Source of the DNA: Cloacibacterium rupense | Lineage (GTDB): Bacteria > Bacteroidota > Bacteroidia > Flavobacteriales > Weeksellaceae | Assembly: GCF_014645495.1 (NCBI RefSeq) | Contig: NZ_BMLV01000003.1 | Span: 1-64,000 of the forward strand | DNA: 64,000 nucleotides | Direction of reading: 5' to 3' | Shown: positions 1,534 to 14,220 of the stretch, piece by piece | Layout of the letters: every line of letters starts with the position of its first letter | Position numbering within the stretch: position 1 is the stretch's first letter | Made by a program: the position numbers and the translations under genes | The notes under the pieces: generated by a model | The model's database searches: none | The model's input: the letters and a program-made list of their open reading frames with translations, nothing else | What the model was told of the DNA's origin: nothing

Positions 1534-1559
1534 AATTTTATATTTTTTTATATTTTTAA

Positions 1560-1587
1560 AATTCCTCCTCAAAACAGAGGAGGAATT
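1560..1587 (-). terminator. Hairpin between the 1242-aa gene and the hydrolase gene
   Basis: Perfect 11-bp inverted repeat (AATTCCTCCTC / GAGGAGGAATT) with a 6-nt loop, starting 12 bp after the stop of the 1242-aa gene. The minus-strand tract after the stem is short (TTTT after the shared bases), and the plus-strand side has seven T, so it could work both ways. Its position rules out translation starting at 1572 for the next gene. Confidence 0.7.
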
Positions 1588-1598
1588 AATTTTTTTGG

Positions 1599-4500
1599 TT
1601 ATACTTTTATTGTTTCGTTATACACATTTGTAACCGTCTTCGGCAAAGTAGTTGCTAAGTCGCTTCCTGCCATTTTAGCATCTTCTAGTAATACAAAAGG
1701 ACATTCAAACACCAATTCTTCTGGGTTTTCACAGTTTGCTACATCTGTTTCCGGGAAGATTGGTAAAGCATCCGTAACTTCTAAACCTGCAGATTTTGCC
1801 TGTAAAATGGTAAGAGAGGTAGGGATGGTAGTAATCCAATATTTACCTTGTGGTTTGCCAGTAGGCTCTCTAAGTTCATCTGCTATAGAAAGGAACATAG
1901 GATCTCCAATTACCGGTACTTCGCCACCGTTCCAGATTTTGCCGGTTGCCATATAGAAATTTACAGCATCTTCAAAACCTGGCTTTACCGTAACTACTAC
2001 TCTTGCCATACCTGCTTGTAAGAAATTTCTAAACAATGGATCTAGCTCTTCTGATAAGTACATTTCTTTCCAATGCTTATTTTCTGCCCAGTAATATGGA
2101 TAGAAGGTATAATCCATCACATTCCACTCAAAGGCTTGTTCTAAGAATTTGGCAAGTGAGGTGTAAGCATCTAAATTCTCGTCTATGGTTACGCTAAAGC
2201 TTTCCATCGTCTGGTTATCATCCGTAGAAAGAGCTTTGCCAATGCCATTATAGTCTTGCAGTAAATAAGCAATGCAATTATGTTTTAAGATATTAGATTC
2301 CATCTCACGGTAGAATGTGCTTACTTTATCTTTATTCTTTTCTTCTTCCGCTTTAGATGTGGCGTCTGCATCTGCCTGTGCTTGTTTAAAATCTGCGTAC
2401 TGCTTATCATATTCTTCAATAATGGCGTTGAAGCTATTCCTTTTCCAATTGTTATAATATTCATCACTTCGTTCACAATTTACAACCACCTTTATATTAT
2501 AATTGGTAATATTATGTCCTCTTACTTTAAACTCTTGAATTCCACTTACATTTAAATTAAATACAGATTGCTCAAAACTGATATTACCATATTCAGATTT
2601 ACCAATCAAATCTCCTTTCAAATTTGAACAAAACACCTCAGAATAACGAGCTCCATCCCATCCTCCACCTCTATTTCTAGAAGATGTACAGCTAAAAATT
2701 GCGCTTTTTCCTATGTAATTCTCTGGTATTGTAATATTGGTAATATCCGGTCCAAAATCATCATTTGTCTGTGGAACACCTGTTGCACCATGTGTTATTT
2801 GATTTATAAATGGTAAAAGAGACGCTATTTTCACTTTATAATAATCTGCCCAATACTGTATGGTAGCTTCTTCTGCTGTTGCATCTTTCATTTGCTTAAG
2901 TCCTGTAGCTTTTCTTGGGTCTATAGGTGCAGTAAGTAGTGTTTTAACAGACTTAGTAGCCAGTCTGTGCAAACGTGCAGGCTCAGGAATCATAAACTCA
3001 AACATGGTACGTTTCCCATAATTAAGAATTTGATTTTTCACTTTTTTATCTACCCATCTGTAAACTCCTGTAATGTGCTGCGGTACTGTATCACTGCCAA
3101 TTTTACCTCGGTTATCAAATTCATGTACATTGTTCAACTGAACATCGTGTACAATTTTCTGAATTCTTTCTTCAGAAATTTTTGTAACCACACGTTCAAG
3201 CGCACGTTCAGTAATCTCTTGTGCTTTTATGGTAGCTTGTCTTGAGCTTTCTCTTTGTGCACTACTGTTAGCGTAGCTTCCACCAATTTCGAATTTCCAA
3301 GTTGCTCCATTTGCACTGAATGATGTATGAGCTTCAATATTTTGTTGTCTGTCTAGTTCTCTCGCTATTTCACTCTGCATTTCTGCACGGTTTACTTTGG
3401 TAGTATCCGTCATTTTTTCTACTTCCTGAGACTTAGTAGTTGTAGTAGTTGTTTCGGTAAGTGTTCTTTCATAGATAGACTTATGGCGAAGCTCACTTGC
3501 CATTACATTTTCTATATTAGAAACTTCACCTGGCACATAGGCATGTACGCTCTGTACTACTTTTAGATAATCTGCCACTCCTAATCTTTTAATTCCAAAA
3601 TTCTTTGGGTTAAATGCTTTTTTACCTGTGTTGCCTTGTGGTAATACTAATTTTGCAAAATAATAGTCTGCTGTAGGATTGTTTAATTTAAAAGTAAGAG
3701 TACCTTCTCTATTATTTTTGAAATAAAATTTTGCGGTAAATTCTGTAAAATCGTATAATTCTGAAATCGTAAACTGATCATTAAAAATATTATTAATCAA
3801 TAGTTTTACTCCATCTACAGAAAATTCAGTAGGGGTATAGGTAAGAATATTTCCAGATGAATCTTTTACTTCACACTCTACGGCATCTAACTCCCAAGAA
3901 GTATCTGGCATTTCTAAAACCAAATCGAAATCATACAAATATCTAAAATCTACTACATTCCATCTCATATTAACTTTCGGAGTTAAAACGGCAGAAAGAG
4001 GATTCTGAGCAGTAGCATTTTGAATTCGAACAGAGGCCCCACCAATATTAGCATATTCTTCTTTTTCCACCTCTGTAGTTGTAACAATTTTTGTAGCAAA
4101 TTCAGAGTTTTGACTATCAATCATTTTAACTAATTCTTCTCGAGTAAAAACTCCGTCAACAGGAAGAATTCTTTCGTCTGGTGATGCTTCGTTATTGAAA
4201 AATTGAATATTTTGACTCGAAGGTTCTCCATTATAACTTCCTACAAACTCTCTATTCAGAACATCTGACATTGTTTCAAATGACTTTTGAGAAAGTTTTT
4301 CTTTGAGATAATTCGTATCAAAAGCAGAATAACTAAACTGAAAATTTGGCAAAGTAGGATAAGGAACTGCATCTAAAAGTGCTTGTTTTTCTTCTGGTGT
4401 CTGTTCTGAAGTGAAAGAATTTCTCACAAGATCCAACTGAGCTTCATAATCATCCTTCAATGGCTTAATACTTGTCTGGTAATCTTCTTGAGCAGTATTT

Positions 4501-5327
4501 AGTGCAATGCTATAATCTCTCTGGTAATTTTTAGAAATAAGATTAATCTCCGTCTTCAAAGAATCTATTCTTAATTTTTCTGAAATTGCCAACGCTAATT
4601 CTTGATTTTTTTTAGCATAATTAGCTAGCTTTTTCTCTGCTGCTACAGAAAGTTTAGTAAAATTAGGGTCTTCTGCAATATAAGAAGTAGAAATTAAACT
4701 TTCATTTACAGTAAATACATTAGGGGCATCTTCTGCATCTACACCATCATCTATTATAGTATCTACAAATAATCTTCCTGGCAAAACTACCTTCGCATCT
4801 CTAAGTGATGAATGATCTTCATTATTTTGGTGTAAAGAAAAATGAATAGCTTTTATAATTTGCAAAATAGCCTCTTTTACATAAAAATCTTTTTGAGTTA
4901 GAACCTGATAAATCAAATTGTCCCATAATTTTGCATAATTAGCAGGAAAAGTATTGCTTTCGGGTAAATAATTCCCAATATTTTCTAATTCATTTTTTGC
5001 AATTTTCTCGGCAGCAGGAAAAAAATCTGAAAAATCTGCAACTACTTCACTTTTTGTTTTATAAAAGTAGTTGCTATTTTGAGAATCAATTACTGAAATT
5101 TGATTTTCCAAAGCGGAAATTTTTGATCCATTTGAACTATCCCAAATTCCTACTGGAATAACTTCTTCAAAAAGAATGGCTAAATCTTTTGGGAGATGTA
5201 CAAACCCGAGATTTTTCTCTGGATGCATTTCTGTAAGCTGTGGATTTCTAAGGCTTACAAATCTAAATAATGTTTGTGATGCATTATTTTTACTGTTATT
5301 GTTGTTCATATTTTGTTCTGGTAACAT
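1599..5327 (-). CDS. Large 1242-aa protein of unknown function in fibre island
   Basis: I do not recognise a named domain. It has no signal peptide. Residues about 215-310 are charged and helix/coiled-coil-prone. Residues about 430-580 look beta-rich. Residues about 625-740 are Thr-, Glu- and Gln-rich (TTTTTK, then long charged helices), again coiled-coil-like. A block around residues 750-790, containing YRWVDKK, NYGKRTMFEF and MIPEPARLH, reads as the most conserved-looking part. A second long charged helix lies near residues 970-1020, and the C-terminal 200 residues are globular. Size, alternating coiled coils and position beside fibre genes suggest a structural or adhesion/delivery protein, which is inference. 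It has its own leader holding a hairpin element shared with the fibre cluster, and ends at a hairpin. ATG 5327 is used; an ATG six codons in is an alternative. Confidence 0.75.
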   Translation of the reverse strand: MLPEQNMNNNNSKNNASQTLFRFVSLRNPQLTEMHPEKNLGFVHLPKDLAILFEEVIPVGIWDSSNGSKISALENQISVIDSQNSNYFYKTKSEVVADFSDFFPAAEKIAKNELENIGNYLPESNTFPANYAKLWDNLIYQVLTQKDFYVKEAILQIIKAIHFSLHQNNEDHSSLRDAKVVLPGRLFVDTIIDDGVDAEDAPNVFTVNESLISTSYIAEDPNFTKLSVAAEKKLANYAKKNQELALAISEKLRIDSLKTEINLISKNYQRDYSIALNTAQEDYQTSIKPLKDDYEAQLDLVRNSFTSEQTPEEKQALLDAVPYPTLPNFQFSYSAFDTNYLKEKLSQKSFETMSDVLNREFVGSYNGEPSSQNIQFFNNEASPDERILPVDGVFTREELVKMIDSQNSEFATKIVTTTEVEKEEYANIGGASVRIQNATAQNPLSAVLTPKVNMRWNVVDFRYLYDFDLVLEMPDTSWELDAVECEVKDSSGNILTYTPTEFSVDGVKLLINNIFNDQFTISELYDFTEFTAKFYFKNNREGTLTFKLNNPTADYYFAKLVLPQGNTGKKAFNPKNFGIKRLGVADYLKVVQSVHAYVPGEVSNIENVMASELRHKSIYERTLTETTTTTTKSQEVEKMTDTTKVNRAEMQSEIARELDRQQNIEAHTSFSANGATWKFEIGGSYANSSAQRESSRQATIKAQEITERALERVVTKISEERIQKIVHDVQLNNVHEFDNRGKIGSDTVPQHITGVYRWVDKKVKNQILNYGKRTMFEFMIPEPARLHRLATKSVKTLLTAPIDPRKATGLKQMKDATAEEATIQYWADYYKVKIASLLPFINQITHGATGVPQTNDDFGPDITNITIPENYIGKSAIFSCTSSRNRGGGWDGARYSEVFCSNLKGDLIGKSEYGNISFEQSVFNLNVSGIQEFKVRGHNITNYNIKVVVNCERSDEYYNNWKRNSFNAIIEEYDKQYADFKQAQADADATSKAEEEKNKDKVSTFYREMESNILKHNCIAYLLQDYNGIGKALSTDDNQTMESFSVTIDENLDAYTSLAKFLEQAFEWNVMDYTFYPYYWAENKHWKEMYLSEELDPLFRNFLQAGMARVVVTVKPGFEDAVNFYMATGKIWNGGEVPVIGDPMFLSIADELREPTGKPQGKYWITTIPTSLTILQAKSAGLEVTDALPIFPETDVANCENPEELVFECPFVLLEDAKMAGSDLATTLPKTVTNVYNETIKV

Positions 5328-5380
5328 TTTTATATTTTTTTAAATTGTTAATAATTTGATTTTTTGAGATGTACTCTTTG

Positions 5381-5394
5381 TATTTGCGCAAATA
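5381..5394. promoter_or_regulatory. 14-bp perfect palindrome in 1242-aa gene leader
   Basis: TATTTGCGCAAATA is self-complementary and is flanked by ACTCTT and AAGAGT arms with a 2-nt bulge, making a long hairpin in the transcript or an operator in DNA. It lies 54-67 bp before the ATG of the 1242-aa gene. The fibre-cluster leader has a palindrome (9407-9424) in the equivalent place. Confidence 0.4.
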
Positions 5395-5418
5395 AGAGTG
5401 TTGTTTTTTAGTTTTTAA

Positions 5419-5459
5419 GCATAATACATGCTGTTCAATAATTTTAAGTTATTGATTTT
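5419..5459 (-). promoter_or_regulatory. Shared leader element, copy B
   Basis: About 30 of 42 aligned positions match copy A at 9438-9479. On the minus strand it is a perfect 7-bp hairpin (TCAATAA / TTATTGA, loop CTTAAAA), followed by ACAGCA and a second small dyad (AGCAT / ATGCT). The stem bases differ from copy A while pairing is kept. It lies between the 169-aa gene and the 1242-aa gene. Whether it acts as RNA leader or DNA site cannot be told from two copies. Confidence 0.45.
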
Positions 5460-5498
5460 CAATTAATTTACTTTTAAATTTTAATTAAAAGCCAACCA

Positions 5499-6008
5499 TT
5501 AAGAAAGTTGGTTTAGACTTGACTTGAAGTCTATATCCTGCAATAGCTCATTTAGATATGCAGATAATAATTGTAAAAAACCTACCTTATTATTTTTCAA
5601 CAACCAAAGAAGATATTTATGGCTATTCACAAAAAGTGGTGACATTTTTGGTGTTCCATCTTCGTTCAATAAAGGCTCTTCTGTTTCTGAATCTGCTACA
5701 GGAACTTCTATTCTTTGAAAATTTTCATCTCTTAAAGATGAAGTTTCAATTTCTGAAATCATCCATTCTGGAGTAGGGAGATTAGATGGGATTATATTAC
5801 CTTCTGAATCTTTAAGTATCTGACTGTACCAAATATATGTTCTTGGTAAATTAAGGTCTATACTTATTTTATTGATCTGGATATATCTATCTAAATCTTG
5901 TGATAATAAAGGATGTTTATCTATTTTTATTTCTCCTAAATCTAATTTTGTAGAATTGATAGAATCTAATAATCCTTGTATTGCCGTTGGTATTTGTAAA
6001 TTTTTCAT
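5499..6008 (-). CDS. Hypothetical protein, 169 aa, downstream of fibre genes
   Basis: Unrecognised soluble protein without signal peptide or membrane segment. The first 50 residues are helical and Leu/Ile-rich. The middle (residues 85-135) is acidic and proline-containing. The C-terminal 45 residues form a hydrophobic amphipathic helix pair (LLWLLKNNKVGFLQLLSAYLNELL). It follows fibre 2 by only 2 bp, so it is almost certainly in the same operon. In phages and tailocins a small gene directly after a tail fibre is often a fibre assembly chaperone; the size and position fit, but I see no chaperone motif, so that stays a guess. A weak inverted repeat (CCAAC/GTTGG) covers the stop codon. Confidence 0.65.
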   Translation of the reverse strand: MKNLQIPTAIQGLLDSINSTKLDLGEIKIDKHPLLSQDLDRYIQINKISIDLNLPRTYIWYSQILKDSEGNIIPSNLPTPEWMISEIETSSLRDENFQRIEVPVADSETEEPLLNEDGTPKMSPLFVNSHKYLLWLLKNNKVGFLQLLSAYLNELLQDIDFKSSLNQLS

Positions 6009-6010
6009 AA

Positions 6011-7702
6011 TTAAAAAGATTGATAAGTTGATGGAAATTGTATTTTGAAATTTTGTCCTATGGCTGTTCCATATCCGCCATCAGAAGAATAGAAATTAGC
6101 ATAAAATCTAATGGTATCTCCAATATCATAATTCTGAACCATTGAAGAAACCAATACAACTCCATTAGGAGCTAGCTGGATTATAGTTGTAATACCATCT
6201 TTATTAAAAAAAATACATTTAACAACTACTGTCTGATTTCTTGTTTGATTATGATCTTTATTAGTAACTGAATTAATAAATCTATGACCATAATCTCCCC
6301 CTACACCTAAAAATGCTTGTGGAGAGTATCCATTAGTTATACCAAAATCTCCATTTGAAAACCCACAATTAAATGAAGCATTCGTATATGAACCAACTAA
6401 ATACATTTCAAAATTAAATTCATATAAAAAACCATTCTGAAAATTAAACAGTGCATTAGATTTTACTGATTTTTCTAGTGTTGTTTTTCCCGCTTGTTGT
6501 AGATTAATGTGGTAAATTTCTGAGCTTGTTACATAATCGGATGAGTTAGTATATTTATCTACAACACTGAAAGATATAGGATTAAAGTTTGATAGATTAA
6601 AGTTTTCTTCTACAAAAAATTCTGGACTTGTTAAATTTGTCAAGCCTGTAAATGATGTAATGTATATTTTATAATATCCCTTAGCTTTACCAAAAAAGTT
6701 AATTCCTAGGACTAAGATTTGAAAATTTGTTGAAAAAGTCTGAATCGATGAAGCATTTATTAATGTTTCTTCTGGAATTACACTAACTCCATTTTCATCT
6801 TTTACTCTAACTAATCTTACAACTGATGCTCCTGTATTAATATATAAGTTTAAACCAATTACTGATACATACTGAGTATAATTATGTGAACTATTAATAT
6901 TGTTCGGACTTATTAAATCAATTCTAGGCTGTCCTGTACTATAAGTCTCTCCTGTTTTTCTTTGTGCTAATCTCCAAACATCTTTCTCTGCATCTGTCAT
7001 AGAAGTAACTGCATCTGTGATTAGAGTTTTACTATCAGCAACAGCATCTAATCCGTTTGTATTCTGAACTCTTATCTTTCTAAAATTAGTTACATCTGTA
7101 TTCTTATTAGGTAAACCTGCTAAAGTGTGAGGATTTCCCAAAGTATTTACAGTCAACGCTGCATTCATCGTATGGTTTCTAGCAGTTGTATTGCTTAAAT
7201 CAGCATTAAAAAAATTCTTTCCTAAATCTCCTACTGGTAATCTTGCAGAGCCGCCATTTCCGTTTTCTCCTATTACATAAGGATAAGATACAGGATTGCT
7301 GGTAATCGTTGGTTTATCCAATTTTGTATTATCTGCATTTACTCTTGCTGTAGTTTCATTTTGTATAGCTTGTAATATGGCAGCTTCTGCTGTTTCATCA
7401 TTACTTATCCAATCCGCTATTTCCTTTAATGTATCATAAGTTTCAGGTACATTATTTTTTAGATTATTAATTGCATTAGCTATTTTTGCATCTACTTGTT
7501 CTTTTGTATTTACTGTTCCTTCTATATTTTCTGTTTCAGTATTTATATCTACCGTCGCTAAATTAGGAGGAATTCCCTCTATTTTTTCTTTGGGAATATT
7601 CTCTTCCTTATGCCAATAAGAGTCTTGCCATTCCCAGAAATCTTCTTGTTTGGGCTTGTCTCCGTTTTCGAAGACTTTTTTTAGTTCTTGTTTTGATTTC
7701 AT
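6011..7702 (-). CDS. Tail-fibre-like protein 2
   Basis: 563 aa. The N-terminal 23 residues (MKSKQELKKVFENGDKPKQ then EDFW) are identical to fibre 1, and similarity continues to about residue 135 through a helical segment with PETYDTLKEIADWISND, a pattern typical of phage tail or head fibre N-terminal regions in Bacteroidota. After LDKPT the two proteins diverge completely. Residues about 150-250 are Asn/Thr-rich, and the C-terminal 330 residues are beta-rich with aromatic residues and no S74 chaperone motif, a plausible receptor-binding domain. No signal peptide. It sits between fibre 1 (27 bp upstream) and the 169-aa gene (2 bp downstream). Fibre identity rests on this architecture rather than on a database match. 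Confidence 0.7.
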   Translation of the reverse strand: MKSKQELKKVFENGDKPKQEDFWEWQDSYWHKEENIPKEKIEGIPPNLATVDINTETENIEGTVNTKEQVDAKIANAINNLKNNVPETYDTLKEIADWISNDETAEAAILQAIQNETTARVNADNTKLDKPTITSNPVSYPYVIGENGNGGSARLPVGDLGKNFFNADLSNTTARNHTMNAALTVNTLGNPHTLAGLPNKNTDVTNFRKIRVQNTNGLDAVADSKTLITDAVTSMTDAEKDVWRLAQRKTGETYSTGQPRIDLISPNNINSSHNYTQYVSVIGLNLYINTGASVVRLVRVKDENGVSVIPEETLINASSIQTFSTNFQILVLGINFFGKAKGYYKIYITSFTGLTNLTSPEFFVEENFNLSNFNPISFSVVDKYTNSSDYVTSSEIYHINLQQAGKTTLEKSVKSNALFNFQNGFLYEFNFEMYLVGSYTNASFNCGFSNGDFGITNGYSPQAFLGVGGDYGHRFINSVTNKDHNQTRNQTVVVKCIFFNKDGITTIIQLAPNGVVLVSSMVQNYDIGDTIRFYANFYSSDGGYGTAIGQNFKIQFPSTYQSF

Positions 7703-7729
7703 AAACGATTGTGTTTGATAATTAAAATA

Positions 7730-9079
7730 TTAGTAAAGAGCATTCCAATTAGTTCCATCAAACCCATAATGTTTGCTGTCTGAGGTATTAAAGAACAAGT
7801 CACCTGAGTTGGGTACACTAGGAAAAATTGTTCCTTTAGAAGCATTAATTTCTAATGCCTTTTTATCTTCCCAGCCAAAAGTTCCATCTGGTTTTGCTAC
7901 AATATTTTTTGTATAAGTACTATCTGCATTAGGCATATATCCAGCTCCAATAATGAATTTACCATTGAATTTCACCCATCTTTCAAAAAAGTCACCAGTA
8001 ATTAATCCTAAATCCCAAGTATTCATACCATGAGGTGAAGGTGCAGTGTCCCAAAAAGAATTTGGATTAGTTGTATAACCTATCCCAGTAGATGTATTCA
8101 CTATATTATGAATACATAATTTATTATTAACACTCTGATTTGCTACTTGAGAAGTACTTTGCCCCCCTGCACCAGAACCAATAAAAATGTTATTATTACC
8201 TGTTCTTAAACTTATGCCAGAACCATATCCAATACCTATGTTATTAGAACCTGCCTCTATCCTACTTAATGCGCCATTACCAACACCAACATTTCTACTC
8301 CCTGAAGTAACATTATGAACAGATGATGTACCAATAGCTACATTATGTTTTGCAGTAATTTCTTTATTTATTGTATTCGTAGAAGGGTCATACCCTCCAG
8401 AACCTCCACCTGCTATTATAGTGTTTCCAATACCAGTTGTTAATGTTTTATTAGCTTCATTTCCTATTAATACATTATAATAACCAGTTGTTAAACCACC
8501 TCCAGAATTATACCCAAATATAAAATTATTTTGCCCTATATTATTTGTAGGCTCAGTGCCCATAAATAAAGAACTTAAATCTTCTTTTGGTACAATAGGT
8601 GTATTTTTAATTTTTAAAGGTTCTTGCGAAACATTATAGTTATTTTCATACTTTAATTGTCCATCAACAAAAATTTTATTCGTATCATCCCAAAGCCCAT
8701 AATAATTATTAGTCATTGTAGGTTTGTCCAATTTTGTATTGATTAATTGGAGCAATGCAGCTTCAGCGTTGCTGTCGTTGGCTATATAATCTGCAATTTC
8801 TTTTAGGGTATCATAAGTTTCGGGGGCATTTGCTTTTAAAGCGTCAATTGCAGAATTTATTTTTGCGTTTACCTGTTGTTTTGTGTCTACATTTCCTAAT
8901 GTTTCTGTTCCGTTGTTTGTTTTATCAACCGTAGCCAAATTAGACTTTAACAATGATAATTCTTCCAAGGTAACAGGTTCATCTCTGTGGAAGTAGGATT
9001 CTATTAAATCCCAGAAGTCTTCTTGTTTGGGTTTGTCTCCGTTTTCGAAGACCTTTTTTAGTTCTTGTTTTGATTTCAT
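7730..9079 (-). CDS. Tail-fibre-like protein 1 with Asn-Ile-Gly beta repeats
   Basis: 449 aa. Residues 1-120 match fibre 2, including the PETYDTLKEIADYIAND helix. Residues about 180-305 carry repeats of the type NNxxIGxxA (NVLIGNEA, NVAIGTSS, NVGVGNGA, NIGIGYGS, NIFIGSGA), like the YadA-head-type beta-roll repeats seen in Bacteroidota phage fibres and surface proteins. Residues about 340-405 look like a separate domain, and the last 40 residues (SGDLFFNTSDSKHYGFDGTNWNAL) resemble the short tip repeat found at the end of many fibre proteins. No signal peptide. The pairing of two proteins with a common base and different tips suggests alternative host-binding specificities. Confidence 0.75.
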   Translation of the reverse strand: MKSKQELKKVFENGDKPKQEDFWDLIESYFHRDEPVTLEELSLLKSNLATVDKTNNGTETLGNVDTKQQVNAKINSAIDALKANAPETYDTLKEIADYIANDSNAEAALLQLINTKLDKPTMTNNYYGLWDDTNKIFVDGQLKYENNYNVSQEPLKIKNTPIVPKEDLSSLFMGTEPTNNIGQNNFIFGYNSGGGLTTGYYNVLIGNEANKTLTTGIGNTIIAGGGSGGYDPSTNTINKEITAKHNVAIGTSSVHNVTSGSRNVGVGNGALSRIEAGSNNIGIGYGSGISLRTGNNNIFIGSGAGGQSTSQVANQSVNNKLCIHNIVNTSTGIGYTTNPNSFWDTAPSPHGMNTWDLGLITGDFFERWVKFNGKFIIGAGYMPNADSTYTKNIVAKPDGTFGWEDKKALEINASKGTIFPSVPNSGDLFFNTSDSKHYGFDGTNWNALY

Positions 9080-9110
9080 TTTTTTTGTTTTTAAGTGTTG
9101 ATTCTGTTTT

Positions 9111-9173
9111 CTAAAAGGACAAAAATTTCATTAAAAAATTCTCTATCCACTTTTCTAAAATGCTTGTTTTCAT
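9111..9173 (-). CDS. Possible 20-aa peptide
   Basis: ATG 9173 to TAG 9111 encodes a 20-residue amphipathic, Phe/Leu-rich peptide (MKTSILEKWI then ENFLMKFLSF). It lies in the 109-bp gap between the 60-aa gene and fibre 1, 31 bp before the fibre start. Its composition resembles the 29-aa peptide at 9510-9599. It may be chance in an AT-rich gap. Confidence 0.25.
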   Translation of the reverse strand: MKTSILEKWIENFLMKFLSF

Positions 9174-9188
9174 AGCAAATAATTTAGG

Positions 9189-9371
9189 TTAATAATTCAT
9201 TTCATAATCCTGAAACCTCAGCTCCATTTCATCAAATTCTTTTGAAAAAAATAGTTCCATATCTTGCAACTCATCTTCTATATGGAGTTCCATTTTTTCT
9301 TCTTCGGTTAATGAGGTAATGGCGATTTCCTTTTCCTGAAAAACATCAGGAACGTCTTCAGATGCTTTCAT
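9189..9371 (-). CDS. Small acidic protein, 60 aa
   Basis: Strongly acidic peptide (about 19 Asp/Glu against 4 Lys/Arg), helix-prone, with no cysteines, signal or membrane segment. It is the first full gene after leader element A and precedes the 20-aa frame and fibre 1 on the same strand. Its ATG overlaps the stop of a 10-codon A-rich frame (9368-9400) in an ATGA arrangement, which may be chance. Its function is unknown. An acidic DNA-mimic or anti-repressor role is possible for a protein of this type but nothing here proves it. Confidence 0.5.
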   Translation of the reverse strand: MKASEDVPDVFQEKEIAITSLTEEEKMELHIEDELQDMELFFSKEFDEMELRFQDYEMNY

Positions 9372-9406
9372 TTTTTTTTGTAATTTTTTAGGTTAAACAT
9401 TTTTTT

Positions 9407-9424
9407 AATTTTTCGCGAAAAATT
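9407..9424. promoter_or_regulatory. 18-bp perfect palindrome before the 60-aa gene
   Basis: AATTTTTCGCGAAAAATT is fully self-complementary and centred about 44 bp before ATG 9371. On the minus strand an A-run follows it, so it is not a rho-independent terminator for these genes. It is an operator candidate or a leader hairpin. A CG-centred palindrome sits in the matching place before the 1242-aa gene. Confidence 0.4.
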
Positions 9425-9437
9425 TTGTGACTTTGGT

Positions 9438-9479
9438 GCATACTTCTTGCTGTTCGAGTCACATTTAAGTGTCGATTTT
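9438..9479 (-). promoter_or_regulatory. Shared leader element, copy A
   Basis: Counterpart of copy B at 5419-5459. On the minus strand it folds as TCGA-CAC / GTG-TCGA with a TTAAAT loop and a 2-nt bulge, followed by ACAGCA and then TATGC. The 3' arm also contains TGTGACT, which can pair with AGTCACA (plus 9426-9432 with 9457-9463), so two mutually exclusive hairpins are possible. It lies in the 138 bp between the 29-aa gene and the 60-aa gene. Confidence 0.45.
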
Positions 9480-9509
9480 AATAATAGTAGTCGTAAAAAT
9501 TTTAGTTAA

Positions 9510-9599
9510 TTATGCGCTTTTCTCTTTCTTTCTAAAGAGTTTTTCTCTAATGAACAAGACGGCATGTTCGAATAAGATTTTTAGAAATTTCTTTTTCAT
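9510..9599 (-). CDS. Small cationic amphipathic peptide, 29 aa
   Basis: ATG 9599 to TAA 9510, MKKKFLKILFEHAVLFIREK followed by LFRKKEKSA. The hydrophobic centre between Lys/Arg-rich ends suits a membrane-active helix, net charge about +7. It begins 34 bp after the -7 element of the promoter at 9634-9667, the same spacing range as the other four box promoters, which is the main reason to believe it is a gene. A membrane-disrupting or holin-like role beside an endolysin and a phospholipase is an attractive but unproven reading. Confidence 0.45.
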   Translation of the reverse strand: MKKKFLKILFEHAVLFIREKLFRKKEKSA

Positions 9600-9633
9600 T
9601 GTAATTTGTATTTGGTGTTTTGTTTTGATGTTT

Positions 9634-9667
9634 CAAAGGTAATTTGCAGTGGCGCCAAAACTCGTCG
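9634..9667 (-). promoter_or_regulatory. Box promoter 1 (29-aa peptide)
   Basis: Conserved core CGCCAAAACTCGTCG at 9653-9667 (plus strand). On the minus strand TTTTG is followed by 14 nt and then TACCTTTG (9634-9641), a perfect TAnnTTTG -7 element. A start codon lies 34 bp further on. This is one of five promoters with the same layout. Confidence 0.75.
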
Positions 9668-9676
9668 TGTTAAAGT

Positions 9677-9700
9677 TTATTTTGAAAAAAATTTCATCAT
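9677..9700 (-). other. Seven-codon frame after box promoter 2
   Basis: ATGATG starts a frame MMKFFSK that stops at 9677. It begins 31 bp after a complete box promoter, where the other copies place a real gene start. It may be a leader peptide, the remnant of a lost gene, or nothing. Confidence 0.3.
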
Positions 9701-9731
9701 TTGTGTTTTTATTTTGTGTTTTTCTCTGAAA

Positions 9732-9765
9732 CAAAGATATACCGAAGATGCGCCAAAACTCGTCG
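9732..9765 (-). promoter_or_regulatory. Box promoter 2
   Basis: Core CGCCAAAACTCGTCG at 9751-9765, immediately after the patatin stop. On the minus strand TTTTG, 14 nt, then TATCTTTG (9732-9739). It is the copy closest to the WYL-gene dyad, sharing ATGCG and CGCAT at both ends. The next reading frame is only seven codons, so it may act as a tandem promoter for the fibre cluster. Confidence 0.7.
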
Positions 9766-9767
9766 CA

Positions 9768-10808
9768 TTAAATTTTATTTTTAATTAATTTCTGAACTAT
9801 CTGATTCAGTGTTTCTTTGTTTTCATTCACATAAGAAAGTCCCGCCTGTATCAAAGCATCTAGATTTTCTTGCTTCACATTATCCATTTCTGGTGAAGCA
9901 TTTTTAAGCGAAGGATTTAGTCTATAATAGTTTTTTTGATTACGGTTTCCCAAAGTTTGAAACATTTGCGAAAGTTGATAATCTACCGTTTCTGCATTAG
10001 AAGACATCAAAATATCAATTACCGGACTTATCCATTTTATTTTTCCTGCATTCTCCAGATTTTTGTATGAATATGGTTTGGTCTCAGAGCCAGTTCCTAC
10101 AGAAACAATCATCATATCATTTACAGAAGGTCTATTGGGTTTAAGATGCGACTTTAATACTTCAGCAAAAGGAATTTTTCTGGCTTCAGCATAGGCACAA
10201 AGTGCAGGATTATTAGCAAATAAACCTCCGTCTATCAAACTAAAGTATTGTCCGTAAACCGATTTTATTTTGGCAGGAGAAAAATAAGTAGGCGCTGCCG
10301 AAGTTGCCCTACAAATATCTCTTACCAAAAAATTGTTGGTTGGCAATTGTGCATCCCAAGAATTAAAAAGTTGAGCTTTTCTATTTTCAATATCATAAGC
10401 AGTAATCAATGAAGGTTTTGCAAAATCTTTCAGTTCCAGATTACCAAAAAAGTCCAGAAGATGTTTTTCCAATTCTTCTTCAGAAATTTTTTCGCTAAAA
10501 AGTCCAAAAGGATTCACCAACCCTCCCCAAAAACCTACACTGAAAATATCTTCTCCTTTTTCAGAATAGAGTTCAAATGCTTTTTGGATAGAGAATTTAG
10601 CTTTTTTATTTCCATTAGGATAGAGTAAAATAGACGCCAAAATTCCGCCGGTACTACTTCCAGCAATTAGGTCGAAATAATCTCCTAATTTCAAATTGGG
10701 ATTGTCTTTTTGCTGAAGCTGTTCTTCTATATATTTGAGAATAATACAAGGGATAATTCCTCGTATTCCTCCTCCGTCCAGAGAAAGAATAGTAATTTTT
10801 TTGCTCAT
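9768..10808 (-). CDS. Patatin-like phospholipase
   Basis: 346 aa, cytosolic by sequence (no signal peptide). The patatin fold signatures are complete: oxyanion-hole DGGGIRG at residues 11-17, the GSSTG nucleophile elbow with Ser52, and the catalytic Asp193 in LIDGG. The family hydrolyses membrane phospholipids or galactolipids with a Ser-Asp dyad. ATG 10808 is chosen because the upstream extension runs through the promoter. It has its own box promoter 23 bp upstream and is flanked by box copies on both sides. In bacterial islands patatins act as toxin effectors or as membrane-killing effectors of defence systems such as CapV; here no nucleotidyltransferase partner is visible, and company with an endolysin favours a role in envelope lysis. 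Confidence 0.9.
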   Translation of the reverse strand: MSKKITILSLDGGGIRGIIPCIILKYIEEQLQQKDNPNLKLGDYFDLIAGSSTGGILASILLYPNGNKKAKFSIQKAFELYSEKGEDIFSVGFWGGLVNPFGLFSEKISEEELEKHLLDFFGNLELKDFAKPSLITAYDIENRKAQLFNSWDAQLPTNNFLVRDICRATSAAPTYFSPAKIKSVYGQYFSLIDGGLFANNPALCAYAEARKIPFAEVLKSHLKPNRPSVNDMMIVSVGTGSETKPYSYKNLENAGKIKWISPVIDILMSSNAETVDYQLSQMFQTLGNRNQKNYYRLNPSLKNASPEMDNVKQENLDALIQAGLSYVNENKETLNQIVQKLIKNKI

Positions 10809-10831
10809 TGTTTTGTGATTTGATGTTGAGG

Positions 10832-10865
10832 CAAATGTAGATGCTGGTGACGCCAAAACTCGTCG
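10832..10865 (-). promoter_or_regulatory. Box promoter 3 (patatin)
   Basis: Core at 10851-10865. On the minus strand TTTTG, 14 nt, TACATTTG (10832-10839), and ATG 23 bp on. It lies between the M15 stop and the patatin start. Confidence 0.75.
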
Positions 10866-10880
10866 TAAGAAAATTAATCT

Positions 10881-11381
10881 TTAGAAAATAACGTAACCGT
10901 ATTGGTCTCTCTTCATTTTAATAAGGTTGCGCCAAGAGGTTTTTACTAAAGATTTTTCTGTAGGTAAAAATCTGCGCTCAAAATGGGGCAAGTCTTTAAA
11001 TTTCAACCAATTTCCGCCCCAATCCCAACCGTTTTTGGCAAAGATTTTTACACATTCATACCAATCGGCAATTTTATCGCCGTCCCAATCTTTTTTAGTG
11101 TCAAAACTGGCTTCTTTTCCATCTATGATAAGGCAAATATCTACCGCTAACCCATAGTTATGAATACTCTGTCCGGCTTTAGCATTGGTAACTTTTTGTT
11201 CTTTGTTTAGTCTGCCTTTGGCGTAGAGCAATTCTTGCTCTTCAAAAGTTCTTATCCCTTGTGTAATTCTTATTTTGGCTCTTCCTTGCAATGCTTGATC
11301 GCATTGTTTAATGATTTCGGTAACCTCAGCTCTTACTATAGGATGTAGTTTCGCAATTCTTTGCTGTGTAATTTTGTCCAT
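10881..11381 (-). CDS. M15 peptidase, phage endolysin-like
   Basis: 166 aa, no signal peptide. It matches the M15 D-Ala-D-Ala carboxypeptidase/L-Ala-D-Glu peptidase family: the SxHxxGxAxD zinc motif is SIHNYGLAVD (His74, Asp81), and the third ligand is His133 in DLPHFE, preceded by WDWGGNW. The length and lack of export signal fit phage-type endolysins that cut the peptide stem of peptidoglycan, and the YAKGR segment after IRTFEEQ is typical. Such enzymes need a holin or membrane damage to reach the wall; the neighbouring phospholipase and cationic peptide could provide that. It is transcribed from its own box promoter. Confidence 0.9.
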   Translation of the reverse strand: MDKITQQRIAKLHPIVRAEVTEIIKQCDQALQGRAKIRITQGIRTFEEQELLYAKGRLNKEQKVTNAKAGQSIHNYGLAVDICLIIDGKEASFDTKKDWDGDKIADWYECVKIFAKNGWDWGGNWLKFKDLPHFERRFLPTEKSLVKTSWRNLIKMKRDQYGYVIF

Positions 11382-11404
11382 TTTTTAATATTTTGTTATT
11401 GGGA

Positions 11405-11438
11405 TAAAGCTATTTTTTCGCTGCGCCAAAACTCGTCG
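11405..11438 (-). promoter_or_regulatory. Box promoter 4 (M15 peptidase)
   Basis: Core at 11424-11438. On the minus strand TTTTG, 14 nt, TAGCTTTA (11405-11412), one base off TAnnTTTG, and ATG 23 bp on. A terminator for the WYL gene ends just before it. Confidence 0.7.
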
Positions 11439-11460
11439 TATTAAAAAAAGAAATAAAAAA

Positions 11461-11482
11461 ATCCGCCTTTTTCGAGGCGGAT
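11461..11482 (-). terminator. Terminator of the WYL regulator gene
   Basis: 7-bp perfect stem (ATCCGCC / GGCGGAT) with a GA/T-rich 8-nt loop, followed on the minus strand by a run of T. It separates the regulator from the M15 gene, so the two are independent units. Confidence 0.85.
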
Positions 11483-11501
11483 GTTATTGAGAAAAAAGTT
11501 T

Positions 11502-12419
11502 TTACAAAAAATAATTTTTTATACTTTCTTGAAGATGAATTTTAATGTCGTCTATAAGACATTGTGGCTCTAGAACTTTTACTTCTTTTCCGTAAGAAAG
11601 AATTTCTTGCATAAAATCATAGGTAGGATGAAGACATAACTCAAAAACAACTTTTTCAGGCGTTTCTGACACAAGTTCTTGTGTAGAATGAAGCGGAAAG
11701 CTCTTGACGTATTCGGCTTGCTGCTTACTACATTCTAAAACAATTTTTTGAGGTTTTTGTTCTTCTAAATTCATCACTCCAAAAGAGTTTTTAAAATGTT
11801 CCTTCACGTCAATTTTATAACGTTCTCTGTAGCTGGCTTTATATACATCTAAATACTTTATTCTGTCTAAACCAAAGGATTTGGTCTTTTTATCTTTAGT
11901 ATCAACTGCTATGAGATACCATCTGTCTTTAGATTCTTTCAGGGCTAAAGGATGTACTTTTCTTTTGGTGATTTTTTGATTGAGAAAACTGAAATGTTCA
12001 AATTCTACTACTTTTTTATTTCTGATAGCAAAAAGTAAATCATAAAAAGAATCTATTCCTCTGGGTTTCCTAGGCTCTAAAAAAACAAAATCTGCAAAAT
12101 CTGGATAAGCATTAATAGCATTGATAATCTGATAAGATTCTAAAAGCCTTTGGTTGTACTCATCTACTTCCATTATGGGTCTGCTTGCAATAAAATACCG
12201 ATTATCTCCCTTTTTCTTATTCTGAATAACGAGGTTAAATAAGGAGTTTATATCTTTCAAATCTCTCTGTAAAGTTCTTATAGAATATTGATAAACATTA
12301 GCATCTTGAAATTCTCTGCTGTCTAACAAAAATTGCTCTATCTCTTCAAAGGTTGCAGGAGAACGCTCAAGTCTTTTGATAATTAAAGCATAACGTGCCA
12401 AAAAGAAGTCTTTTTTCAT
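11502..12419 (-). CDS. WYL-domain transcriptional regulator
   Basis: 305 aa. An N-terminal winged helix-turn-helix (residues about 5-75, with SIRTLQRDLKDI as recognition-helix region) is followed by a WYL domain (about 125-195) with RWYLIAVD at 166-173, and a C-terminal WCX-like domain (about 215-300). WYL proteins sense nucleic acids or other ligands and in several known cases respond to DNA damage (DriD) or regulate phage-defence operons (CapW/BrxR). Its own promoter carries a 9-bp-arm dyad in exactly the register of the four box promoters downstream, so it probably autoregulates and may control the M15, patatin and peptide genes. Direction of control (activator or repressor) cannot be read from sequence. 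Confidence 0.9.
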   Translation of the reverse strand: MKKDFFLARYALIIKRLERSPATFEEIEQFLLDSREFQDANVYQYSIRTLQRDLKDINSLFNLVIQNKKKGDNRYFIASRPIMEVDEYNQRLLESYQIINAINAYPDFADFVFLEPRKPRGIDSFYDLLFAIRNKKVVEFEHFSFLNQKITKRKVHPLALKESKDRWYLIAVDTKDKKTKSFGLDRIKYLDVYKASYRERYKIDVKEHFKNSFGVMNLEEQKPQKIVLECSKQQAEYVKSFPLHSTQELVSETPEKVVFELCLHPTYDFMQEILSYGKEVKVLEPQCLIDDIKIHLQESIKNYFL

Positions 12420-12447
12420 GGTCTTGAATTGTTGTTTTTTATTAGGA

Positions 12448-12485
12448 CAAAGTTAAAAAGCTAATGCGTCAAAATGTGACGCATT
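12448..12485 (-). promoter_or_regulatory. Box promoter 5 with dyad (WYL gene)
   Basis: Perfect dyad AATGCGTCA / TGACGCATT with 5-bp spacer at 12463-12485. On the minus strand TTTTG within the dyad is followed by exactly 14 nt and TAACTTTG (12448-12455), with ATG 28 bp on. Against box copy 2 it matches at 17 of 23 positions. Confidence 0.75.
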
Positions 12486-12670
12486 TTACTTAATTTTTCA
12501 AAAATATTCTGATCATCTAATTTTTACAATTGAGATTAATTTTGGATAAGGTCAAAAAAATTAAACCTAAAAATCCATTTATAATTATATTTGATTAATG
12601 TTTTTAGTTTTTACTATTAAATTTTGTAAATAAGGAAAGGAATGTATAAATTGTAAGTAATTCACAAAAT

Positions 12671-13900
12671 TTAAATACTTCTTTCTCTCTGATTAAGTAC
12701 ATTTTTTAGATTTTTCATATCCTCACTTACTTTTTTATCTAAAATTTTAGCATAATGCTGTGTAGTTTTAATGCTTTTATGACCAAGCATTTTGCTTACG
12801 CTTTCAATAGAAACATTGTTGGCAAGCGTTACAGTAGTTGCAAAAGTATGTCTTGCGCAGTGAAAAGTTAGTTTTTTATGTATGCCGCAATTTTCCGCAA
12901 TAGTTTTTAAATACTCATTTACTTTTTGATTGGTGTAAACTGGAAGTAATTTTCCAGAATTTGAAACAGATGGATGATTTTCATATTTTTTTATGATTTC
13001 TTCAGCAATAGGAAGCAAAGGAATATTTGAAGAATTACCTGTCTTTTGGCGGTTGGTGATTATCCAAAGGGTTTTATCAATTCCAATGGAAAGTTGCTCC
13101 TTTTTTAGATTGTAAATATCAATGTAAGCAAGACCTGTATAACAACTAAAAATAAACATATCACGAACCAAGTCAATACCTTTTCCTGAAAATTCTTTGT
13201 TCATGATTGTATTAATTTCTTCTTCTGTAAGGAAATTAACATTCACCTCTTGAAATCTTCCTTTATAGAACATCACCAAATCTTTTTCAATCCAATTATT
13301 TTGATAGCAGATTTTTAAAATCTTACCTAAATTTTTGGTATGTTTTACTGCGGAATTGTTATTGATATTGGATTTTGTGCGCAAGAAAAAATCAAAGTCA
13401 TTTAGGAAAGACAATTCAAGTTTTTGAATATTAATATCAGATTTTTTATGAAATTTCCACAAAAATTCTTTCAAATGAGCCAAACATGTTTTAAAATTCT
13501 TGAGTGTTGCTAGTGCATACTCCTTACCCAAAAGCTTTTCAATTTTGTTATTATGTTCTTCAAAAATTGGAATGAGAAATCTTTCAACTTTATCCTTACC
13601 CGTAAGAATATTTTTAATATCATTTGCATCAAAATAATCTCTTGATAAAATGAGGTTTCTTTCGATTTCAAGAATTTTTGAATACAACACATCTAAATAT
13701 TTATTCAAAGCACGTGCTTCTTCTGAACTTCCTTTTTGACGGCTCTGTATAGAGCACCATTTATCAATAACTACAGTTTTTCCTGTTGAAAACTCTGCTC
13801 TTTTACCGTTAACTGTAATTCTTAAATAAATAGGGACTTTAGTTAGTGAAGTTGCTTTGGATTTTTTTGCATAGAATAATATCGAAACTTTTGCATTCAT
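12671..13900 (-). CDS. Tyrosine recombinase, Bacteroidota IntDOT-like
   Basis: 409 aa. An arm-binding N-terminal domain (residues about 1-95), a SAM-like core-binding domain (about 110-210) and a catalytic domain (about 220-395). Visible catalytic residues: Lys286 in RQKTG, His347 and Arg350 in HCARHTF, His374 in LGHKS, and the nucleophile Tyr383. The first catalytic Arg, normally in TGLR, is Ala258 (CYTGLAYID); loss of this Arg is known for IntDOT of CTnDOT and relatives. It lies 247 bp from the 3' end of tRNA-Phe, the usual arrangement for an integrase whose element uses a tRNA as attachment site. Confidence 0.92.
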   Translation of the reverse strand: MNAKVSILFYAKKSKATSLTKVPIYLRITVNGKRAEFSTGKTVVIDKWCSIQSRQKGSSEEARALNKYLDVLYSKILEIERNLILSRDYFDANDIKNILTGKDKVERFLIPIFEEHNNKIEKLLGKEYALATLKNFKTCLAHLKEFLWKFHKKSDINIQKLELSFLNDFDFFLRTKSNINNNSAVKHTKNLGKILKICYQNNWIEKDLVMFYKGRFQEVNVNFLTEEEINTIMNKEFSGKGIDLVRDMFIFSCYTGLAYIDIYNLKKEQLSIGIDKTLWIITNRQKTGNSSNIPLLPIAEEIIKKYENHPSVSNSGKLLPVYTNQKVNEYLKTIAENCGIHKKLTFHCARHTFATTVTLANNVSIESVSKMLGHKSIKTTQHYAKILDKKVSEDMKNLKNVLNQRERSI

Positions 13901-13996
13901 AATGGTAACTTTAAAGGTTAAAATAAATATAAAGGGCCCATTTACACAAGATGTTTAATTTTAAAACAAGCTTGTCTATGGGCTTTTCCAGAGAAT

Positions 13997-14035
13997 TCGG
14001 TTACCTACCTATGATTAAAATTTAGAGGTAACCGA
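13997..14035. repeat. Inverted repeat in attachment region
   Basis: Perfect 10-bp arms TCGGTTACCT (13997-14006) and AGGTAACCGA (14026-14035), 19-bp spacer. It lies between the integrase start and tRNA-Phe and is too widely spaced and T-poor for a terminator. A second, imperfect inverted repeat (GCCCAT...ATGGGC, 13933-13983) lies beside it. These are candidates for integrase arm or accessory-factor sites. Confidence 0.5.
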
Positions 14036-14095
14036 TTTGGTCACCTTACGAATTGACACATTTTGATATTTTTAGTATCAAATAACAACAAAAAA

Positions 14096-14119
14096 CCCTC
14101 AAATCTTACGATTTAAGGG
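14096..14119 (-). terminator. Terminator of tRNA-Phe
   Basis: Hairpin CCCTTAAATC / GATTTGAGGG (one mismatch, GTAA loop) followed by six T on the minus strand, 29 bp after the tRNA 3' end. A promoterless tRNA transcript would end here, so the native tRNA unit seems intact despite the island. Confidence 0.8.
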
Positions 14120-14147
14120 CATTTGCTTGAAATTGAACATTTCAAAG

Positions 14148-14220
<73 letters not shown>

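Follow-up and report, generated by a model that had tools for sequence, protein, structure and literature searches.

Candidate structured leader RNAs before the fibre cluster and the 1242-aa gene of a Cloacibacterium rupense island and before related genes in other Weeksellaceae

The preQ1-I and SAM-II riboswitches are H-type pseudoknots with an A-rich third loop, located in leaders, and JUMPstart/ops elements occupy the leaders of long operons and work with RfaH. Few structured leaders are, to our knowledge, known from Flavobacteriia. PMC2864571 names JUMPstart as well as three Bacteroidetes RNA motifs, Flavo-1, Bacteroidales-1 and Bacteroid-trp. In phages, PMC535899 describes the operator of T4/RB69 gene 32 as a leader pseudoknot of about 28 nt for which binding of gp32 was tested, with a sequence that diverges among T4-like phages and with a Shine-Dalgarno element in the leader; mRNAs of Bacteroidetes are described in PMC6847099 as being without Shine-Dalgarno elements.

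The stretch of DNA analysed in this work (the window) comprises positions 1-64,000 of contig NZ_BMLV01000003.1 of Cloacibacterium rupense, whose genome consists of 13 contigs with 3,168,824 bases and 33% G+C. One short element occurs in it twice, in the following gene context:

9438-9479, minus strand: hairpin leader element, copy 1; stem TCGACAC/GTG..TCGA at 9475-9454 with a 2-nt bulge, GAACAGCA at 9455-9448, TATGC at 9442-9438
9189-9371, minus strand: small acidic protein (60 aa) that opens the fibre cluster as annotated; homologues in loci L069, L070 and L267
7730-9079, minus strand: tail-fibre-like protein 1, 449 aa; PHROG tail families
6011-7702, minus strand: tail-fibre-like protein 2, 563 aa; phrog_18185, tail fiber protein
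5499-6008, minus strand: 169-aa protein, last gene before copy 2; no family found in Pfam, PHROG or NCBIfam
5419-5459, minus strand: hairpin leader element, copy 2; stem TCAATAA/TTATTGA at 5455-5435, GAACAGCA at 5436-5429, TATGC at 5423-5419
1599-5327, minus strand: 1242-aa protein, downstream of copy 2 and of a candidate pseudoknot; homologue in 144 of 296 sampled family genomes

The 60-aa acidic protein belongs to no Pfam, PHROG or NCBIfam family, and the 1242-aa protein gave nothing over the curated cut-off in Pfam and no match in PHROG, NCBIfam or the PDB sequences; searches of phage proteins with the 1242-aa, 60-aa and 449-aa proteins were likewise without a match. A structure model of the C-terminal part of the 1242-aa protein reached a mean pLDDT of 32.9 without an alignment and of 63.7 with 73 sequences. 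As each of the four PDB matches of the latter model at E up to 0.001 covers only a part (TM-score by query no higher than 0.13), they allow no conclusion on the fold.

Both copies lie exactly where the original prediction had placed them, and its estimate of about 30 matching positions out of 42 proved close, since global alignment of the two minus-strand sequences gave 32 identities, with a score reached by none of 5000 composition-shuffled pairs. The pattern GAACAGCA-N(2-10)-TATGC has two sites in the window vs 0 expected from 100 dinucleotide shuffles; in the exact form with N5 it is present in the whole genome at copies 1 and 2 only (about 0.06 expected from 33% G+C), and two more genomic sites correspond to it with one mismatch. 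The stems of both copies do pair, but an unbroken helix of 7 bp is found in copy 2 alone, whereas the seven pairs of copy 1 are split 4+3 by the bulge, which had been overlooked. The folding energy of each copy with its flanks is unremarkable (z -1.09 for both), and the minimum free energy (MFE) fold of the longer segment 9400-9490 is a competing hairpin instead of the copy-1 stem. Consequently, the two copies alone are weak evidence of selection, and the evidence has to come from relatives. Smaller features around the copies are as follows:

9426-9463, minus strand: competing hairpin TGTGACT 9463-9457 / AGTCACA 9432-9426; MFE fold of 9400-9490 and of the 3' segment
9407-9424, minus strand: CG-centred palindrome; almost identical, in the corresponding position, in L069, L070 and L267
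5432-5418, minus strand: small hairpin AGCAT/ATGCT in copy 2

The element of copy 1 is found at the same place in three relative loci (L069, L070, L267), and that of copy 2 is kept in L040/L069 and L041/L070, there too upstream of the 1242-type gene, and precedes, in L098, a fused 1565-aa relative of the 1242-type protein. The two CG-centred palindromes noticed earlier (9407-9424 and 5381-5394) are both present. The first, being nearly unchanged in three relatives, gives no test of pairing; the second is probably not a separate site, as it sits within the candidate pseudoknot described below.

In relatives the leader is a hairpin with the 3' arm running into CAGC, downstream of a dyad followed by TAnnTTTG, at a distance from this site of 72-79 nt in Chryseobacterium and of 177-189 nt in three Cloacibacterium-like loci, the window included. 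CAGC belonged to the patterns used for finding seeds, and its conservation is therefore partly by construction; 33 GAACAGC matches were obtained, five of which were dropped as judged to lie inside M15 or patatin coding sequence. In the re-pairing test, in which, as in all permutation controls of this work, shared ancestry is still contained, the own 3' arm of a copy beat the arms of other copies in comparison with 2000 permutations, none of which did as well (58 distinct arm pairs, left after removal of duplicates and of those rows of alignment A4 in which the anchor motif was not detected at its prescribed position). With one representative per distinct 3' arm (n = 30) the count was 0 of 5000, and in a stricter test demanding a contiguous helix (102 elements kept) 16 of 3000. 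A4 was built from 67 of 172 searched sources; matches were accepted up to E 0.7, and four exceeded E 0.01. A3 left out 19 of 51 leaders, including L116 4706-4773 and L112 3746-3813. In the alignment of 120 model matches, 90.6% of the cells were paired vs 3-52% when the partners were slid, and the covariation score was 0.144 vs 0.116 in shuffles (sd 0.005; 0/500), but the number of double-changed pairs was no higher than in shuffles (221/500). Model R1 also contained an additional stem, TTTGAA/TTCAAA, enclosing the hairpin; this outer stem was rejected, as it did not pass a permutation test (1492/3000).

The original prediction regarded stems that differ in sequence and yet pair as the mark of selection on structure. 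The re-pairing tests and double changes argue for this, whereas RNAalifold predicted zero pairs on alignments A2 (where MAFFT misaligns the arms of divergent copies) and A4, and a hairpin alignment restricted to Chryseobacterium showed no covariation (113/500); covariation is thus seen in the wider comparison overall, but not in these two analyses. As to distribution, model R1 matched 10 of 120 sampled family genomes; of its 16 matches, 14 lie up to about 6 kb from a listed 1242 homologue and two adjoin, by eye, a patatin gene. In the 64 kb, a model trained on Chryseobacterium placed the window copies first and third among 16 matches, but with weak E values of 0.18 and 0.71, and it missed both in a genome scan with stricter filters. 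Upstream stretches of up to 420 nt before 1242-type genes in Kordia, Flavobacterium and Psychroserpens (L198, L201, L203, L210, L240, L245) contained no such element by eye.

The competing hairpin of copy 1 and the copy-1 stem are mutually exclusive. Its counterparts fold in L069 and L070; in L267 only a GTGA/TCAC counterpart was seen by eye, and the segment folded otherwise. The same exclusion holds between the CAGC hairpin and a competing hairpin in many hairpin leaders (e.g., TGAACA/TGTTCA, TGGAC/GTCCA, CGGACA/TGTCTG), for which the re-pairing test, on the same 102 elements, was reached by 2 of 3000 permutations; the comparison of competing folds covered 114 elements. Exclusivity is not universal, because the two small hairpins of copy 2 are compatible.

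The CAGC hairpin, usually followed by TATG, is one of two leader modules, which occur singly or in tandem; the other is an H-type pseudoknot followed by a hairpin (P3). The window contains a candidate for it:

5354-5399, minus strand: candidate H-type pseudoknot before the 1242-aa gene, enclosing the palindrome 5381-5394; P1 ACTCTT 5399-5394 / AAGAGT 5378-5373, P2 ATTTG 5393-5389 / CAAAT 5358-5354

Counterparts of this structure exist in L069, in L070 with other bases in both helices and, by eye, in L098 with one G-U in P2. A hairpin nested in the palindrome is an alternative fold and is the MFE structure of a segment without the last P2 base. Across the pseudoknot leaders, 10 of 16 pairs carried double changes vs 5.0 in shuffles, and 31 cells were double-changed vs 8.3 (sd 2.4; 0/500), of which 25 belong to the downstream hairpin and six to the pseudoknot helices; two of the 46 leaders (L131, L134) were left out of this alignment, A5. 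Since MAFFT misaligns P2 in it (52.5% of P2 cells paired), this helix was examined by permuting loops and tails. No permutation out of 2000 equalled the own 26-nt tail, although in some rows (e.g., L035, L049, L087, L092, L130, L131, L132, L134) the best helix was not the intended P2, and none out of 3000 did so when the tail was cut before P3, at 20 nt, with one row per distinct helix (27 rows). Tandem leaders were read over their whole length at three loci (L072, L137, L211), and in each the hairpin precedes the pseudoknot.

The compact pseudoknot with its A-rich third loop and nearly invariant P1, together with mutually exclusive hairpins in many hairpin leaders, could be expected of a metabolite riboswitch, in which a small molecule would be sensed by the pseudoknot leader or by the two hairpins acting as a two-state switch. 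Such a function is very unlikely: P2 changes between clades, unlike a fixed pocket, the R1 matches are confined to this kind of island among the 120 sampled genomes, and no Rfam family was matched. Specifically, in nine sources including the window only a tRNA (14148-14220) reached the gathering score, eight loci with Chryseobacterium-type or related leaders gave no match, and seven leader loci searched at E up to 1 gave a single hit, to a viral RNA, which stayed below the threshold (23.1 bits vs 58 required). The open-access literature searched yielded no description of this leader or island.

Promoters were assigned by sequence match only. Upstream of copy 1 they and a further feature are:

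9634-9669, minus strand: dyad + TAnnTTTG promoter-like site nearest copy 1, 178 nt from its TTTG to GAACAGC
9732-9767, minus strand: second, tandem dyad + TAnnTTTG promoter-like site
9510-9599, minus strand: possible leader ORF for a basic peptide of 29 aa, downstream of the promoter and upstream of copy 1, by eye; similar ORFs in L069, L070 and L267

The proposal that the element belongs to a leader RNA is supported for copy 1 and for relatives, where it lies between the predicted promoter and the start codon, but no promoter of the dyad type was found in the genome just upstream of copy 2, for which the leader position is consequently the weaker claim. This fixed order of promoter, element and start codon on the coding strand, together with the joint change of paired arms and with crossing pairs and an A-rich loop that have no obvious role in duplex DNA, speaks against a DNA-level site, i.e., inverted repeats acting as operators or recombination sites, with RNA folding being incidental. 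The repeats are indeed imperfect inverted repeats near promoters, and copies precede fibre genes with conserved starts that could recombine. Mismatches in the hairpin favour RNA (G-U 57 vs A-C 24), but in P3 there is no G-U excess (13 vs 21), so that strand asymmetry does not settle the question; considering all these points, we regard a DNA site as unlikely.

Leaders recognised by pattern precede small acidic genes in 58 of 72 cases, fibre genes in 56 of 152 and 1242-type genes in 48 of 120; for 43 WYL, 73 M15 and 73 patatin genes the count is zero throughout. Where a dyad promoter lies within 330 nt, either module is present before 32 of 32 1242-type genes (16 of 88 without such a promoter), 40 of 51 fibre genes (16 of 101 without) and 57 of 71 small acidic genes; the Fisher values for the first two (1.6e-17 and 4e-14) treat genes as independent. 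The original prediction that particle genes are set apart from lysis genes therefore stands as far as the leaders are concerned, but one dyad promoter type is common to WYL, M15, patatin and small acidic/fibre genes, and the separation is not absolute. The presence of leaders before long structural genes and not before the short M15 and patatin genes would also suit processive antitermination, in which the leader would help polymerase through the long fibre and 1242 genes, either by loading a NusG/RfaH-like factor or by modifying the enzyme itself as RNA. We consider it quite unlikely, as a leader is also present in front of the acidic gene, which is short (about 170-180 nt), and no dedicated NusG paralogue was found: the only NusG-domain gene of the genome (C3:274631) lies outside the island, and five of six other genomes hold one such gene, the sixth (G010) holding two. 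A put-type RNA acting without NusG may be the form of antitermination left standing. An intrinsic terminator or attenuator, which would require a G+C-rich stem and then a run of U, was rejected: positions 1-15000 contain 11 terminator-like sites, all of them outside the two copies, and the closest is 5511-5492.

Several unrelated types of leader, such as the g9-type (L082, L084, L279) and a different hairpin before patatin, occupy the same place, as would be natural if the leaders were passive, their hairpins merely protecting 5' regions of mRNA or keeping the start codon open with no regulator. This appears rather unlikely in view of the constant hairpin-then-pseudoknot order in the tandem leaders and of the retention of CAGC where pairing does not need it, even though CAGC served for seed finding.

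Taken together, the data favour, with a probability of roughly 0.6, a cis-acting structured 5'-UTR RNA that would act after transcription starts, in messages for the particle components, namely the small acidic protein, the fibres and the 1242-type protein. Transcription presumably begins at the dyad + TAnnTTTG promoters, of a type shared with WYL, M15 and patatin genes. The leader would then fold, as covariation suggests, into the hairpin whose 3' arm continues directly into CAGC and, mostly, TATG. A TGTTCA-like segment further downstream may compete for this arm in many copies, and some of the 1242-type and fibre genes would be preceded by the pseudoknot with its A-rich loop and hairpin. The amount or timing of protein would be set at the level of message stability or of translation initiation, and the most likely agent is a protein or other ligand that would recognise the conserved single-stranded motif and thereby alter the fold. 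One possible though doubtful form of this, by analogy with T4 gene 32, is that a particle protein exerts autogenous control. More speculative is the idea that the bistable CAGC hairpin and the pseudoknot constitute a two-module leader code, an RNA-level regulon timing or balancing the structural proteins of an undescribed Weeksellaceae particle and read by a particle protein, which lysis genes with the same promoter escape. If leaders do control assembly stoichiometry or timing, a bacterial island would possess a phage-like post-transcriptional layer. They also mark the structural genes in a kind of island whose main protein family, though present in 144 of the 296 sampled family genomes, gave no hit above cut-off in Pfam, PHROG, NCBIfam and PDB sequences. 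Sharp predictions that can be tested follow from the competing folds and from the pseudoknot.

Among known systems, preQ1-I and SAM-II share with these leaders the H-type topology and A-rich third loop, but here Rfam gives no match, the P2 sequence is not conserved and no metabolic gene follows. JUMPstart/ops resemble them as leader elements before long structural operons, differing in the lack here of an Rfam match and of a dedicated NusG paralogue in the genome. Flavo-1, Bacteroidales-1 and Bacteroid-trp are likewise structured Bacteroidetes RNAs found by comparison, but the leader loci searched match no Rfam family. From T4 gene 32 the present leaders differ in their second, hairpin module and in a binder that is putative. 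They are like the T4/RB69 operator (PMC535899) in being leaders of phage-type genes in which a pseudoknot is followed, ahead of the start codon, by an A/U-rich region with less structure, and a leader pseudoknot upstream of the start codon is present in Chryseobacterium-type leaders and, for the window, by way of L069, L070 and L098.

The gene order of the island along the minus strand is an integrase, a WYL-domain regulator, an M15 peptidase and a patatin-like phospholipase, next the promoters and copy 1 of the hairpin element, then a 60-aa acidic protein, two fibre-like proteins and a 169-aa protein, and from copy 2 on, a 1242-aa and a 433-aa protein; the window begins at the contig edge. 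A tRNA gene (14148-14220) adjoins the integrase gene, and 12671-14220 of the window is likely the integration site of the island. The promoters share one type, made up of a dyad (for example CGACGAGTTTTGGCG) and, 11 nt past its end, TAnnTTTG, the Bacteroidetes promoter element according to PMC6847099. In the window it lies upstream of the patatin gene, the WYL gene and copy 1 (two in tandem), the M15 promoter having a final A instead of G.

Dyad and TAnnTTTG-like sites, and a tiny ORF beside them
12481-12448, minus: site before the WYL gene
11438-11405, minus: site before the M15 gene
10865-10832, minus: site before the patatin gene
9767-9732 and 9669-9634, minus: sites before the fibre genes
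about 9690-9732, minus: tiny ORF starting ATGATGAAA; also in relatives' loci L069 (7861-8290), L082, L084 and L279

The tiny ORF follows the first tandem fibre-cluster promoter in several loci, and a candidate 29-aa basic ORF (9510-9599, minus) lies between promoter and copy 1; L069, L070 and L267 have a readable counterpart in this position. In a census of 179 loci, with identical upstream sequences collapsed to one, a dyad with TTTG was found within 330 nt upstream of 38/43 WYL, 71/73 M15, 59/73 patatin, 71/72 small acidic, 51/152 fibre and 32/120 1242-type genes. One promoter type before WYL, M15, patatin and fibre genes suggests a single regulon, perhaps controlled by the WYL protein, the obvious candidate for binding the dyad.

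Both hairpin copies lie where the original prediction had placed them (9438-9479 and 5419-5459, minus), and their similarity was borne out by 32 aligned identities and a score equalled by none of 5000 shuffled pairs. GAACAGCA followed by TATGC 2-10 nt downstream occurs at two sites in the window (0 expected); at the exact 5-nt spacing, the only sites in the organism's own genome (3,168,824 bases) are copies 1 and 2 (about 0.06 expected). The pairing proposed for both stems is a clean 7 bp in copy 2, while copy 1 pairs as 4+3 bp interrupted by a 2-nt bulge. The folding energy of each copy with its flanks is unremarkable taken alone (z -1.09 apiece), and in a longer segment at copy 1 a rival fold beats the stem energetically.

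Among 245 dyad promoters of the first locus set, 33 had GAACAGC within 200 nt downstream, five of these matches being judged coding sequence; GAACAGC lay 72-79 nt from TTTG in Chryseobacterium, and in the window, L069 and L070 the spacing was 177-189 nt. The model R1, built from 32 Chryseobacterium hairpin copies, had 98 matches in one batch of loci and 83 in another, the contents of the two overlapping. In the hairpin alignment A4 (120 matches, 108 distinct rows, 67/172 sources), conservation of the CAGC/GAAC letters is partly by construction, since the seed-finding patterns contained CAGC or GAAC. Its stem cells were paired in 90.6% versus 3-52% with slid partners; the covariation score was 0.144 versus 0.116 in shuffles (0/500), and double-change cells numbered 6 versus 1.6 (0/500), double-changed pairs not being in excess (2 versus 1.4; 221/500). 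Selection on structure, originally read from the two differing stems, is favoured by re-pairing of 5' and 3' arms among copies, with 13.99 for matched versus 11.41 (sd 0.43) for permuted arms (0/5000; one row per distinct 3' arm, n=30, divergent genera and window copy 1 included); on the other side, RNAalifold predicted no pairs on alignments A2 and A4, and in A3 the stem is nearly invariant. The 3' arm of copy 2 is identical to that of L098 in this permutation set.

Many copies have an alternative pairing open to them, between the 3' arm extended by CA (TGAACA, TGGACA, CGGACA) and TGTTCA, TGTTTA or TGTCTG further downstream (10.60 matched versus 9.93 permuted, sd 0.21; 2/3000). Over 114 elements the mean folding energy was -2.7 versus -1.4 kcal/mol shuffled for the hairpin and -4.6 versus -2.3 kcal/mol for the competitor. 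The competing pairing of copy 1 is TGTGACT/AGTCACA; copy 2 has a second small hairpin, AGCAT/ATGCT, that can coexist with the first, so that a two-state switch is not universal. An outer stem first drawn around the hairpin failed permutation (1492/3000).

A second leader type, found by reading upstream of the 1242-type gene in Chryseobacterium, comprises GGTGG-loop-CCACC, an A-rich stretch, a loop-pairing GGCTAAA, a hairpin and, after some 30-35 nt, the start codon; 45 distinct copies were found by pattern and one by eye in L072. In its alignment A5 (44 rows), double changes occurred in 10/16 pairs versus 5.0 in shuffles, in 31 versus 8.3 cells, and the covariation score was 0.175 versus 0.099 (each 0/500). 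As 25 of the 31 cells fall in the downstream hairpin, with three each in the pseudoknot helices P1 and P2, the table supports mostly that hairpin. Since MAFFT misaligned P2, this helix was examined apart from A5: the loop with its own tail gave 12.65 versus 11.19 permuted (46 rows, 0/2000), 12.12 versus 10.65 with the tail cut before the hairpin, 12.18 versus 11.00 in 43 Chryseobacterium-type rows and 12.63 versus 10.78 with one row per distinct helix (n=27), the last three at 0/3000. The CG palindrome noticed near copy 2 (5381-5394) is present, and sits within a candidate of this type, a plain nested hairpin being the alternative fold:

5399-5354, minus: candidate pseudoknot; can form P1 ACTCTT/AAGAGT and P2 ATTTG/CAAAT

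At the same place L070 has TAAATC/GATTTA and GTTGT/ACAAC. In L072, L137 and L211 one gene is preceded by both modules, hairpin and pseudoknot, in tandem, and by pattern such tandems were found upstream of 15 fibre and four 1242-type genes.

Either module was found by pattern before 58/72 small acidic, 56/152 fibre and 48/120 1242-type genes, and before 0/43 WYL, 0/73 M15 and 0/73 patatin genes, in agreement with the proposal that the particle genes are set apart from the lysis genes. With one shuffle per upstream sequence, the hairpin pattern appeared in 7/72 small acidic, 5/152 fibre, 3/120 1242-type, 1/43 WYL, 0/73 M15 and 2/73 patatin sequences, and the pseudoknot pattern in none of any class. 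Leader presence follows the dyad promoter: 32/32 1242-type genes with it carry a module versus 16/88 without, and 40/51 versus 16/101 fibre genes (Fisher tests here treat genes as independent). At E <=0.001, R1 matched in 10/120 family genomes, the own genome failing this screen; for 14/16 matches a listed 1242 homologue is no more than about 6 kb away, and the remaining two, in genome G072, adjoin a patatin gene identified by eye. Chryseobacterium patatin genes (L163, L120, L121, L151 and others) have their own long leader, its median length 124 nt counted from TTTG; by eye it contains another hairpin, for example CTAAAACCA/TGGTTTTAG. The small acidic gene of genus g9 (L082, L084, L279) has another structured-looking leader in the same position, with CAGC/GCTG and GGTAA/TTACC in L082 and L084.

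The 1242-aa family is present in 144/296 sampled family genomes and 10/33 genera, Chryseobacterium predominating in a named scan (80 loci kept of 341). On the own contig C8, locus L037 (380-2797) holds a remnant of the 3' part of the 1242 gene (91% identity over 242 bp) followed by a Tle1-like phospholipase gene, as if effector-like genes downstream were swapped by recombination at the 1242 gene end. The Chryseobacterium plasmid NZ_CP044508.1 (L035), typed mobilizable, bears an M15-patatin-1242 module.

No Rfam family reached its gathering score on the leaders of the window or of 16 further sources (leader loci and plasmid), and seven leader loci had no credible weaker match; the literature searched, including the accessible part of PMC2864571, yielded no description of the leader. 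Judged from sequence, the element would belong among leader RNAs, a kind already known, with nothing unprecedented in mechanism so far. Conservation, covariation, placement relative to promoter-like sites and gene specificity by pattern are supported, and the element presumably acts as RNA, after initiation. Antitermination through a dedicated NusG is unlikely, the own genome having one NusG-domain gene. According to PMC6847099, mRNA structure tunes translation in Flavobacterium, and Shine-Dalgarno sequences are absent from the mRNAs of Bacteroidetes, which makes the structure of an RNA leader a plausible handle. For the possible action of the pseudoknot module the closest example worked out is T4 gene 32, where, as described in PMC535899, a pseudoknot nucleates cooperative binding toward the start codon.
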